A DNA stretch of 64,000 nucleotides from Amycolatopsis nigrescens CSC17Ta-90 (lineage in GTDB: Bacteria; Actinomycetota; Actinomycetes; Mycobacteriales; Pseudonocardiaceae), in the NCBI RefSeq assembly GCF_000384315.1, contig NZ_ARVW01000001.1:5146157-5210156 (forward strand). Reading direction: 5' to 3'. The notes under the pieces were generated by a model. The model was given only the letters and a program-made list of their open reading frames with translations, did no database searches and had not been told where the DNA came from. The position numbers were made by a program, and so were the translations under genes. This document shows, one piece after another, positions 29,467 to 32,856 of the stretch; position 1 is the first letter of the stretch, and each line of letters opens with the position of its first letter.

Positions 29467-29639
29467 GTGGCCCTGTGTCAAGCCGCGGCACCCAGGACGA
29501 CCATGGCGCGCGCACCGGCCGGCAGGCCCCGCTATCGGGGCGGCAGGGCGCTCATCTGGTCATCCTTGCGGGGCAACGGGAGTCGCGCCCTGTCGACACG
29601 ATCGCGGATGCGCGCAGACTCGCGGAGGAGTGGGCATGA
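29463..29639 (+). CDS. Putative 58-aa protein between dhaL and dhaM
   Basis: An open frame of exactly 58 codons that joins dhaL and dhaM: its ATG overlaps the dhaL stop (ATGA 29463-29466) and its TGA overlaps the dhaM start (ATGA 29636-29639). Both junctions are the form used for translational coupling elsewhere in this genome. The sequence is polar at the start (Gly, Arg, Gln, Ser), has a short strand-like HLVILAG and ends in a helix (TIADARRLAEEW). GC at third positions is lower than in dhaL or dhaM. No homology is recognised; it may simply be a ribosome bridge. Confidence 0.5.
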   Translation: MSGPVSSRGTQDDHGARTGRQAPLSGRQGAHLVILAGQRESRPVDTIADARRLAEEWA

Positions 29640-30313
29640 GCGTGGGACTTGTGCTGGTCTCGCACAGCGCGAAGCTGGCCGAAGGGCTGGCCGAGCTGGC
29701 CGTGCAGATGGCGCCGGACGTCACCGTGGTCCCGGCGGGCGGGCTGCCGGGCGGCGGACTGGGCACCGACTACGACGGGGTGGTGGCCGCGGTGCAGCGG
29801 GCCGACTCCGGTGACGGGGTGGTGCTGCTCTACGACCTCGGCAGCGCGCAGATGACCGCCGAGCTGGCGGTGGAGTCGCTGGCCGACCCAGCCGGCGCGG
29901 CGGTGGTGGACGCGCCGCTGGTGGAGGGCTCGATCGCCGCCGCGGTCGCCGCGCAGGGCGGCGCGGGCCGGGCCGCGGTGGCCGCGGCCGCCGCCTCGGC
30001 GGGGGCGCCGCCGGACCTCGCGGTCACGCTGCCGGATGACGGCGGTGCCGGTGAGGGTGTCGAGCTGACCCTGAGCAACGACGTCGGCCTGCACGCCCGG
30101 CCGGCCGCGTTGCTGGCCAGGAGTCTGACCGGGCTGGACGCCGAGGTCACCATCAGGCTCGGCGACTCGGTGGCGGACGCGCACAGCGTGCTCGCGCTGA
30201 TGTCCCTCGGCGCGCGGATGGGCGACCGGATCGAGGTGCGGGCCGGCGGGGCGCAGGCCGCCGAGGCGATGCGGGTGGTCAAGGAGCTGGTCGAGCGCAA
30301 TTTCGACGAGTGA
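29636..30313 (+). CDS. dhaM: PTS-dependent dihydroxyacetone kinase phosphotransfer subunit DhaM (EIIA-HPr)
   Basis: Passes phosphate from the PTS to DhaL-ADP. 225 residues with two domains: an EIIA-Man-like part with phospho-His H10 in LVLVSHSAKLAEG, and an HPr-like part with H153 in GLHARPAALLAR. There is no EI domain, so phosphate must come from the general EI. ATG at 29636 is preceded by GGAGGAG inside the small upstream frame. Last gene of the operon; a strong hairpin follows at 30397-30437. Confidence 0.95.
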   Translation: MSVGLVLVSHSAKLAEGLAELAVQMAPDVTVVPAGGLPGGGLGTDYDGVVAAVQRADSGDGVVLLYDLGSAQMTAELAVESLADPAGAAVVDAPLVEGSIAAAVAAQGGAGRAAVAAAAASAGAPPDLAVTLPDDGGAGEGVELTLSNDVGLHARPAALLARSLTGLDAEVTIRLGDSVADAHSVLALMSLGARMGDRIEVRAGGAQAAEAMRVVKELVERNFDE

Positions 30314-30396
30314 GCCCGGTGGAGTGCCGGATGTCACGTTTCGGCCGGTGCGGTCGCGGTGCTGGTGACCGTTCGCCGGAGGTTTGCGAATAGGAG

Positions 30397-30437
30397 CCGG
30401 CCGCGCCGTGGATGAGGGCGGTCCACGGCGCGGCCGG
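30397..30437. terminator. 16-bp stem hairpin between dhaM and the micro-peptide genes
   Basis: CCGGCCGCGCCGTGGA (30397-30412) pairs perfectly with 30422-30437 around a 9-base loop. On the plus strand TTGTTT follows, as for an intrinsic terminator of dhaM; on the minus strand it lies 15 bases beyond the second micro-peptide stop and should end that transcript too. Confidence 0.85.
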
Positions 30438-30451
30438 TTGTTTCCGGCCGG

Positions 30452-30526
30452 TCAGCCGACGCCGATGGCCTTGAGCAGCGCGAGTAGCGCGTCGACCAGT
30501 GAACCGAGAATGCTCGTCGATCCCAT
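30452..30526 (-). CDS. Amphipathic micro-peptide B (24 aa)
   Basis: Reading leftward from ATG at 30526: 24 codons ending in TGA at 30452-30454, with a GGAG ribosome site 7 bases upstream. After MGST the sequence SILGSLVDALLALLKAIGVG is an almost ideal amphipathic helix (hydrophobic at i, i+3/4; Asp and Lys on the polar face). It is 14/20 identical to the neighbouring micro-peptide A, and the differences are conservative (E/D, I/L, I/V, H/K), which argues that both are translated. No signal peptide or known family is recognised. The length and pattern recall membrane-active peptides; function is unknown. Confidence 0.72.
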   Translation of the reverse strand: MGSTSILGSLVDALLALLKAIGVG

Positions 30527-30558
30527 CGTTTTCTCCGTTCTCTTCCGGTGGTTCGTGC

Positions 30559-30624
30559 TCAGCCGATTCCGATGGCGTGCAGCAGGGCGGACAACGCTTC
30601 GACGAGCTGGCCGATAATGCTCAT
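30559..30624 (-). CDS. Amphipathic micro-peptide A (21 aa)
   Basis: Reading leftward from ATG at 30624: 21 codons ending in TGA at 30559-30561. An unusually strong ribosome site AGGAGGAG lies 7 bases upstream. The product, M followed by SIIGQLVEALSALLHAIGIG, has hydrophobic residues at 3, 4, 7, 8, 11, 14, 15, 18 and 20 and polar Ser, Gln, Glu, His on the opposite face. The gap to micro-peptide B is 32 bases with a second ribosome site, so the two form a bicistronic unit ending at the hairpin 30397-30437. Function unknown. Confidence 0.72.
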   Translation of the reverse strand: MSIIGQLVEALSALLHAIGIG

Positions 30625-31077
30625 GGGTTTCTCCTCCTGGTTGGTGCGGCGGTTTCGGTGCCTTGACGACCGGTGCCCGCCGTGTGTCGGGAATCAGATC
30701 CCGCGCTCATTTCGGCCAGGTTATCGTCGTTTTCGTCTTGGTTAACGGAAATCATCGAGCATTTCCTGGCGATGAATTCGCAGGTGATCGCGGTTGCTCA
30801 CAAGGAGCGTCGCGCTGTGATCGCCATCGCCTTTGTTCGGTACTGGCAGATTGTTCCCGGCGGCTGACCCGTTTTGCGCCTATCGAGCTGACAGCCGTTT
30901 TAGAATTCGTGTCAGCAATGGCTTTCGTCGATTCATCCGGTTTTGGCGTACGTTGTGATTTCACTCGATAGGGGGCCGTTCTGACTCGATTCCGAAGCCC
31001 GACGACCCTGCTGGATCTTGCGCCGCATGGCACTATCTAGCCGGAAACTACCAGCGAGTAACCACCGGAGGCCGGTT
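30625..31077. other. Gene-poor region upstream of the micro-peptides and the dehydrogenase
   Basis: About 450 bases, clearly less GC-rich than the surroundings. It must contain the leftward promoter for the micro-peptides and the rightward promoter for the dehydrogenase gene. I see an inverted repeat GCTGACA (30887-30893) / TGTCAGC (30910-30916). Short open frames here (for example 31 codons from 30772) lack ribosome sites and codon bias, so I do not call them. Confidence 0.5.
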
Positions 31078-32856
31078 GTGGCACGGGAGATCGCGAGTGT
31101 GGGAGTTGTCGGCCTCGGCACGATGGGGGCCGGAATCGCCGAGGTACTGGCCCGCAGCGGGCTGTCCGTCATCGGGGTGGAGGTCGGCGACGACGGGGTG
31201 GCGCGCGGCCGCGGGCACCTCGAGCACTCGACCGGCCGGGCGCTGAGCAAGGGCAAGCTGGACGAAGCCGGCCGCGCGGAGCTGCTGGGGAGGGTCTCCT
31301 ACAGCACCTCGCTGCACGATCTCGCCGAGGTGGACCTGGTGATCGAGGCGATTCCGGAGAGCCTCGAACTGAAGGCCGAGGTGTTCGCGCAGCTGGACAA
31401 GATCACCGGGCCGGACACCGTGTTCGTCTCGAACACCTCGTCCCTGTCGATCACCGAGATCGGCGTGCACACCGCACGTCCGGGCAAGGTCGTCGGCATG
31501 CACTTTTTCAACCCGGCTCCGGTGCTGAAGCTGGTGGAGATCGTGCGGACGGTGGTCACCGAGCCGGGCGTGGTCGAAGAGGTCACCGCCTTCGCCGAGC
31601 GGCTCGGCAAGACGCCGGTGGTGATGGGCGACCGCGCCGGCTTCATCGCGAACGCGCTGCTGTTCGGCTACCTCAACCACGCGGTGCGGATGTACGAGCA
31701 GCGCTACGCCACCCGCGAGGACCTGGACGCGGCGATGCGGTTCGGCTGCGGTTACCCGATGGGCCCGCTGGCGCTGCTCGACCTGATCGGGCTGGACACC
31801 GCGTACGAAATCCTGGACACGATGTACCACCAGTCGCGCAACCGGCTGCACGCACCGGCGCCGCTGCTGAAGCAGATGATCACCGCCGGCCTGCTGGGCC
31901 GGAAGGTGGGCCGCGGCTTCTACAGCTACGACGCGCCGGACTCGCCGAACGTGGTCGCCGACGCGATCGGCGCCGAATCGTCCACTGTGGACGAATCGGC
32001 GCTGCGCGAGGTGCGACGGGTCGGTGTGGTCGGCACCGGCACGATGGCAACCGGGATCGTCGAGGTGTTCGCCAAACGCGGTTACCCGGTGGTGCTGCGG
32101 GCACGCAGTGCGGAGAAGGCCGAGGCGGCCGTCGCGCGGGTGCGCAAGTCGCTGGACAAGGCCGTGGCCAAGGGGAAGCTGAGCGAGGGCGACGCCGCTG
32201 CCGCGCTCGGCCGGATCTCCCCGGCGGTCGAGTTCGAGGAACTGGCCGACGTGGATCTGGTGGTGGAGGCCGTCGCCGAGGAGCTGCCGGTGAAGCAGGC
32301 CGTGTTCGCCGCGCTGGACGACGTGGTCCGGCCGGGCGCGATCCTGGCCACCACCACCTCCTCGCTGCCGGTGATCGAGTGCGCCGCGGCCACCTCGCGG
32401 CCTTCAGCTGTGCTCGGCATGCACTTCTTCAACCCGGCGCCGGTGATGAAGCTGGTCGAGGTGGTCAGCACCATCGCCACCGCGCCGGAGGTGACCGCCA
32501 CCGCGGCCGCGGTGTGCGGGGAACTCGGCAAGCATCCGGTGCGCTGCGGCGACCGGGCCGGGTTCATCGTGAACGCGCTGCTTTTCCCTTACCTCAACGA
32601 CGCGGTCAAGATGCTGGAGGCGCACTACGCCGGCGCAGACGACATCGACACCGCGATGAAGGTCGGCTGCGGGCTGCCGATGGGCCCGTTCGAGCTGCTC
32701 GACGTGGTGGGCCTGGACGTGTCGCTGGCGATCGAGCGCACGCTGTACAACGAGTTCCGCGAAGAGGGTTTCGCGCCGGCGCCGTTGCTGGAGCACCTGG
32801 TCACCGCGGGCAGGCTCGGCCGCAAGACCGGCAAGGGCTTCGGCGACTACACCTGA
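31078..32856 (+). CDS. Double-module 3-hydroxyacyl-CoA dehydrogenase
   Basis: 592 residues made of two complete 3-hydroxyacyl-CoA dehydrogenase units. Module 1 starts with the NAD-binding GLGTMGAGIAEVLA and contains GMHFFNPAPVLKLVEIV; module 2 starts with GTGTMATGIVEVFAKRG and contains GMHFFNPAPVMKLVEVV. Both carry the catalytic His in that HFFNPAP motif and the GDRAGFI(A/V)NALLF segment. It would oxidise 3-hydroxyacyl-CoA (for example 3-hydroxybutyryl-CoA) in fatty-acid or PHB-linked metabolism. GTG at 31078 follows GGAGG by 6 bases. Internal duplication of this type is common in actinobacteria. Confidence 0.93.
   Translation: MAREIASVGVVGLGTMGAGIAEVLARSGLSVIGVEVGDDGVARGRGHLEHSTGRALSKGKLDEAGRAELLGRVSYSTSLHDLAEVDLVIEAIPESLELKAEVFAQLDKITGPDTVFVSNTSSLSITEIGVHTARPGKVVGMHFFNPAPVLKLVEIVRTVVTEPGVVEEVTAFAERLGKTPVVMGDRAGFIANALLFGYLNHAVRMYEQRYATREDLDAAMRFGCGYPMGPLALLDLIGLDTAYEILDTMYHQSRNRLHAPAPLLKQMITAGLLGRKVGRGFYSYDAPDSPNVVADAIGAESSTVDESALREVRRVGVVGTGTMATGIVEVFAKRGYPVVLRARSAEKAEAAVARVRKSLDKAVAKGKLSEGDAAAALGRISPAVEFEELADVDLVVEAVAEELPVKQAVFAALDDVVRPGAILATTTSSLPVIECAAATSRPSAVLGMHFFNPAPVMKLVEVVSTIATAPEVTATAAAVCGELGKHPVRCGDRAGFIVNALLFPYLNDAVKMLEAHYAGADDIDTAMKVGCGLPMGPFELLDVVGLDVSLAIERTLYNEFREEGFAPAPLLEHLVTAGRLGRKTGKGFGDYT

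Follow-up and report, generated by a model that had tools for sequence, protein, structure and literature searches.

A unit of two adjacent micropeptide genes, here named alpha and beta, was analyzed in a 64,000-nucleotide (nt) stretch of Amycolatopsis nigrescens CSC17Ta-90 (contig NZ_ARVW01000001.1, positions 5,146,157 to 5,210,156; "the window" is this whole stretch and G000 its source genome), together with orthologs in genomes assigned to Amycolatopsis anabasis (G021), Actinosynnema sp. ALI-1.44 (G242), and Kibdelosporangium phytohabitans (G240). The pattern of substitutions indicates that alpha and beta are genuine translated genes. Their products constitute a new family in that nothing in the libraries searched matches them, although peptides of this general kind are known. 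They are best read as two leaderless amphipathic helices, ancient and patchily retained as a pair, that assemble at membranes. The unit comprises the following features.

30559..30624, minus strand: alpha micropeptide gene (21 residues, MSIIGQLVEALSALLHAIGIG), read from the sequence, with orthologs in G021, G242, and G240 that differ mostly by synonymous change.
30452..30526, minus strand: beta micropeptide gene (24 residues, MGSTSILGSLVDALLALLKAIGVG), read from the sequence, with orthologs in G021 and G242 that differ mostly by synonymous change.
30631..30638, minus strand: Shine-Dalgarno sequence of alpha, AGGAGGAG, read from the sequence, predicted to pair with the 16S tail at -10.3 kcal/mol.
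30533..30536, minus strand: Shine-Dalgarno sequence of beta, GGAG, read from the sequence, predicted to pair with the 16S tail at -7.5 kcal/mol.
30397..30437, minus strand: 16-bp hairpin past beta, found by folding; a probable terminator in common with the convergent dhaM gene.
30719..30745, minus strand: direct repeat TTAACC-N15-ATAACC, found by aligning four upstream regions; a probable regulator site or promoter element.

A first-pass annotation of this DNA had described two leftward micro-open reading frames 32 bases apart, and both are indeed present on the minus strand, with 32 nt between the alpha stop codon and the beta ATG; the 14 identities that it had counted between the 20-residue cores can be read off the translations. 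Its further claim that the frames are translated is borne out by the selection test. Of the 17 codons that differ between G000 and G021, 14 are synonymous and 3 alter the residue (expected synonymous share 0.29, P about 9e-6), and 15 of the 19 base changes fall at third positions (P about 6e-5). For the concatenated peptides of the same two genomes, nonsynonymous divergence (dN) is 0.042 and synonymous divergence (dS) 0.575; dN/dS is thus about 0.07 between these orthologs, rather than near 1, the value that the annotation had named as speaking against the genes. The relatives, too, keep the frames (alpha in G021, G242, and G240; beta in G021 and G242).

The residues are tightly held over longer distances as well. 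Identity in the cross-genus pairs compared is 19-20/21 for alpha and 20-21/24 for beta, and 20/21 and 22/24, respectively, between G000 and G021. The peptides are thus more conserved than DhaM between the two Amycolatopsis genomes (175/227) and than PurE between genera (128-131 of 156-157 residues; 129/156 for G000 and G242). The share of same-residue codons that are identical between genera is 0.63-0.78 for alpha, 0.42-0.60 for beta, and 0.57-0.65 for PurE. By this rough measure, which saturates and draws on few codons, the peptides appear to have been separated for about as long as the genera, with their residues held meanwhile; codon identities of this order do not indicate recent transfer, and an old transfer may have taken place.

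The distribution of the unit is patchy. One further genome, G021 (contig NZ_VTHK01000022.1, 157,723 bases), carries both peptides at the same site, as found in a beta search of 60 relatives and an alpha search of 80 genus genomes. A C-terminal codon pattern applied to 390 family genomes added G242, with alpha and beta, and G240, with alpha, where no beta ortholog was found; these two, of the Kibdelosporangium clade, belong to one genus (g44) of the collection. A profile of the seven peptides recovered them in 4/390 Pseudonocardiaceae genomes with 48-54 bits; in all, 143/390 genomes had a match at E up to 1, the best besides the seven peptides reaching 20.0 bits. Strongly diverged relatives would escape all of the homology searches used. 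Both paralogs, each in its own form, are kept in three of the four genomes (G000, G021, and G242).

The other candidates were rejected. The remaining profile matches among those listed were dropped by score and frame length, and the two in short frames that were inspected (L077, L093) are unlike the peptides. Three matches to the codon pattern, a 79-codon open frame (G103, L017), a 25-codon open frame (G552, L039), and the end of a 404-codon open frame (G622, L040), do not resemble the peptides in the part that precedes the matched end, and among 394 genomes from the class the pattern was found in G000 and two unlike places. Of the 16 stretches that a contig search yielded, two are genuine, one in A. 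anabasis and one in Actinosynnema sp. ALI-1.44; the remaining 14 are parts of open frames 135-489 codons long. Weak matches (E above 1) outside G000 and G021 in the searches of 60 relatives and 80 genus genomes fall within frames of 214-989 codons.

None of the family models searched accounts for these sequences, in agreement with the first-pass annotation. Pfam and NCBIfam gave no family at E up to 10 for any of the seven members, at the low sensitivity that such lengths allow, and PHROGs returned noise only, a single family of unknown function matching one member at E 0.5. Searches of PDB, plasmids, phages, viral contigs, a protein database, and PADLOC gave nothing above noise for the peptides. 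Five peptide strings do not occur in the open-licence literature searched (print elsewhere lies beyond that scope), where we likewise found nothing relevant on PSM-like (phenol-soluble modulin-like) peptides in Actinobacteria or on small proteins of Streptomyces and Pseudonocardiaceae.

The two genes differ in the predicted strength of their translation signals. The pairing of the alpha Shine-Dalgarno sequence is matched or beaten at 1.5% of the 997 ATGs on both strands of the window, and its site is accessible in the predicted fold (mean unpaired probability 0.58); for beta, 7.1% of the ATGs do as well. The description of both ribosome sites as very strong therefore holds for alpha and fails for beta, and the distance to the ATG, given earlier as 7 bases, is 6 nt for both on recounting. 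On these signals, high output is plausible for alpha and weaker for beta. The hairpin past beta, which also lies downstream of the convergent dhaM, is firmly predicted (-45.5 kcal/mol for a 76-nt stretch, z -5.3, 0/200 shuffles as good), and a strong hairpin follows the last peptide in 4/4 units. Transcription would probably end there; the hairpin lacks a U-run, and a terminator scan listed nothing on the minus strand.

Upstream, the four units have in common a direct repeat, TTAAYC-N15-WTAAYC, that starts 94-132 nt before the alpha ATG (121 nt in the window). It is perfect in G000, G240, and G242 and has two mismatches (TTTACC/GTAACC) in G021. In each of the first three genomes it is the only perfect TTAAYCN15NTAAYC place (in G240 and G242 as read on both strands), and G021 has one perfect copy elsewhere; this uniqueness is partly circular, because the pattern was drawn from these same units. 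A wider regulon was rejected, as one-mismatch matches number 13, 6, 10, and 9 in G000, G021, G240, and G242 against 9, 10, 7, and 13 for the reversed control. A promoter scan found no sigma-70-like promoter. With the repeat upstream and the hairpin at the end of all four units, the unit looks portable and self-contained.

The amphipathic helix proposed by the first-pass annotation is supported by computation. In the alpha wheel, the sector of 200-340 degrees contains I3, L14, L7, I18, L11, I4, L15, and V8, together with G21; apart from I20, the remaining positions are Gly, Ser, Ala, His, Glu, Gln, and Met. The beta wheel is similar and less clean. The hydrophobic moment is reached by only 1.0-4.2% of same-residue shuffles. 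The seven members have 21-25 residues, no Trp, a net charge of 0 or -1, and a grand average of hydropathy (GRAVY) of 1.0-1.8, and neither micropeptide has a signal peptide. Small residues stand four apart near the end, at A13-A17-G21 in alpha and at A16-A20-G24 in beta. Acid and base are separated by seven positions, as E9/H16 in alpha and as D12/K19 in 3/3 betas; the base is kept in 7/7 peptides and the beta acid in 3/3.

From these properties we infer membrane action, co-assembly, and release. A self-contained operon, controlled through the repeat in front of it, equipped with a ribosome site for each gene, and closed by a hairpin, would give rise to two paralogous micropeptides without signal peptides. 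At a membrane each would form one amphipathic helix, with an Ile/Leu/Val face set against a Gly/Ala/Ser face, the latter carrying at most one acid and one base in mid-helix, seven residues apart. The helices could then pack through the small-residue face, in alpha-beta or like pairs, and the nearly neutral assembled peptide would act on membranes. Known examples of leaderless amphipathic helices of such size act on membranes. The keeping of the pair argues for co-assembly, the strong alpha ribosome site suggests a product needed in quantity, and patchy presence (4/390) with an empty site in relatives points to an accessory trait. Between release and action on the producer's own membrane we lean to release: the peptides would most likely be released in quantity as a surface-active or mildly membrane-permeabilizing accessory product. 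This reading, a two-gene operon of paralogous leaderless helices that co-assemble and are released, is held tentatively, with a little less than even confidence.

Several points weigh against it. The beta start codon is predicted to be mostly paired (mean unpaired probability 0.11 versus 0.40 for alpha, in a folded stretch of 305 nt). In place of its acid, alpha has Thr in G242 and Ala in G240, so that acid/base pairing cannot be required in alpha, and the alpha-beta pair as such is not obligatory, since G240 keeps alpha alone. PurE, identical at 143/156 positions between G000 and G021, is as conserved as the peptides inside the genus. An antagonistic peptide would not usually be conserved to this degree. 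Finally, no linked exporter or immunity gene was recognized by eye in the frames adjoining the unit in the window, G240, or G242, a systematic search not having been made.

That no linked exporter was recognized would fit peptides that act on the producer itself. Made under stress or at a growth stage, they would enter its membrane, depolarize it, and thereby slow growth, much as the type I toxins TisB and IbsC do, whether or not an RNA antitoxin is involved. The peptides agree with such toxins in size and in being a hydrophobic helix; of these toxins, TisB has an acid/base strip on its narrow polar face and IbsC has 19 residues without a cationic end (described in PMC8309996), and the dedicated upstream repeat suggests tight control. 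Two strongly conserved paralogs and an alpha ribosome site that is open rather than masked do not fit. There is also no sign of an antisense RNA, and Rfam matches at 29800-31400 stay far under the gathering scores, a search that an unknown RNA would escape; type I systems are so far given for Proteobacteria, Firmicutes, and Tenericutes only in the account consulted (PMC12390103). Such self-directed action is possible and, on balance, rather unlikely.

Strong purifying selection along the whole peptide would equally suit a fixed contact surface, and a small-residue helix face would suit packing onto another helix, so that inside the producer the peptides might bind a membrane protein, as its small subunits or its regulators, or else recognize a membrane shape and mark it, without harming membranes. 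In that case a common neighbor gene might be looked for, and the two genomic settings have none; a core complex would not normally have so patchily distributed a subunit, and the co-occurring secreted protein described below is found in 30 genomes without the peptides. We regard this role as unlikely, more so than self-directed toxicity.

The first-pass annotation had also drawn an analogy to the outer-layer pore subunits PorA/PorH of corynebacteria, likewise leaderless helical peptides from two adjoining genes (PMC5944148). That analogy is unsupported, because PorA/PorH are tied to a mycolic-acid wall (PMC5944148) and mycolic acids are reported absent in one Amycolatopsis species (PMC11004387), from which no such layer is expected here. 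The peptides are also shorter than the 40-residue PorACj (PMC3792995), their gene setting is another one, and no family matched, which makes a porin very improbable. Leader or attenuator peptides or chance frames, brought to mind by short frames that end at a hairpin, are the least credible and were rejected by the selection test, with amino acids conserved through synonymous change, by the lack of a following same-direction gene to control (dhaM is convergent), and by recurrence of the unit in a second setting with its own hairpin.

In the window, the unit lies on the minus strand between the following two genes.

29630-30313, plus strand: dhaM, with EIIA-man and HPr domains of the phosphotransferase system (PTS).
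31075-32856, plus strand: 3-hydroxyacyl-CoA dehydrogenase gene (593-residue product, two tandem domain sets; the start was chosen by us).

The position next to the dha operon, mentioned in the first-pass annotation, holds for 2/80 genus genomes and breaks down in the Kibdelosporangium clade, where the unit stands, in 2/8 genomes, between a purE relative and another gene, which we take to encode an acyl-CoA dehydrogenase. Among the best 30 of the 80 genus dhaM loci, a peptide-like stretch is absent from 28/28 loci besides those of G000 and G021 (best core score 32 vs 74-79). The gap after dhaM measures 762 and 811 bp in these two, and 94-403 bp in 24 of the 25 peptide-less loci with a placeable dehydrogenase start, the other being G096 with 651 bp. 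A tree of 27 of the 30 loci joins G000 and G021 with weak support (79/6) and long branches. The gap may be an insertion hot spot.

Some further observations concern the same intergenic region and its flanks. The G096 gap (L042) contains a different apparent reading frame, lipoprotein-like by eye. Pfam 3HCDH_N matches the dehydrogenase in two stretches, as does 3HCDH, which makes the protein a tandem fusion. Just 5' of its gene, 31025-31074 with a TTACTCGC-type repeat is matched in 25/28 other genus loci, and a second short block at about 30975-30997 in 6 of these; we presume that these blocks are the dehydrogenase promoter and a fatty-acid regulator site. A search of the whole window found no transfer RNA genes.

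In G240 and G242 the peptides adjoin a gene for a secreted-looking 114-residue protein, for which the following gene positions were recorded.

L072, 6390-6824: secreted 114-residue protein gene.
L071, 5977-6324: secreted 114-residue protein gene.
L114, 1501-1845: secreted 114-residue protein gene.
L116, 1498-1842: secreted 114-residue protein gene.

This protein occurs in 4/4 peptide genomes and 34/390 overall, thus in 30/386 without peptides (P 5e-5 unstratified, 0.009 as the product within two genera, by a test picked after the adjacency had been noticed). An I36-like identity is not borne out by Pfam or NCBIfam, neither of which matched it. In G000 and G021 the secreted gene is not adjacent to the peptides. 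Its distance from purE in G000 is about 6.6 kb, so that an old purE neighborhood may account for the adjacency observed in the Kibdelosporangium clade. The direct repeat is not found within 300 bp upstream of the secreted gene in G240, G000, G031, or G021, and in G242 the two have a common divergent stretch. There, secreted gene and peptides diverge across the repeat; G240 lacks beta and has the two facing each other, which amounts to a local rearrangement (L019, L018).

A more specific and more doubtful version of the release reading would make alpha and beta an undescribed two-component system of ribosomally made, leaderless, near-neutral peptides in filamentous actinomycetes, co-assembling into a membrane-permeabilizing or surface-coating complex. 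Growing cells would release it, possibly on plants or inside them, and it might act together with the secreted 114-residue protein. The source of A. anabasis was the roots of Anabasis elatior (PMC11004387), and K. phytohabitans lives as an endophyte in Jatropha curcas (PMC6092505); plant association of the producers is a lead only. If release from co-assembling helices is correct, filamentous actinomycetes have micropeptides that are conserved no less strictly, residue for residue, than neighboring enzymes. Gene products of this kind fall under the usual size limit of annotation. Short leaderless amphipathic peptides would thereby be extended to Pseudonocardiaceae, raising the question of their export route, if any. 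At 21-25 residues, synthesis and biophysics are cheap, and the empty-site relatives provide natural controls.

Among known systems, the alpha-type phenol-soluble modulins (PSMs) of staphylococci are alike in being leaderless amphipathic helices, a property computed only for the peptides described here. They belong to another phylum and require the exporters Pmt and AbcA (as given in PMC12607899), whereas no linked exporter was recognized by eye beside the unit here, and Pfam and NCBIfam gave no match. Leaderless bacteriocins are active as translated, some as two peptides (EntDD14), and here too there is a leaderless pair. In contrast, aureocin A53 has 51 residues, is highly cationic with five tryptophans, and has transport genes nearby, and the two A53-type peptides described from mining Actinomycetota have 52 residues each (PMC11580447). 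Measured against this type (about 50 residues, cationic, Trp-rich), alpha and beta fall outside it. PorA/PorH of Corynebacterium, which may form hetero-oligomers, are longer, belong to a mycolic-acid wall, and in C. urealyticum lie between groEL2 and polyphosphate kinase genes (PMC5944148), compared with dhaM/dehydrogenase or purE neighbors here. Type I toxins differ in that two paralogs are kept here with no sign of an RNA antitoxin. In form they are close: a hydrophobic helix of about 20-30 residues is typical of them, and the peptides here are small hydrophobic helices under 60 residues that, like IbsC, ShoB, and DinQ, lack a cationic C-terminus; the acids and bases of the TisB strip, through which it is thought to pair antiparallel, stand seven apart (PMC8309996), a spacing similar to that in alpha and beta.
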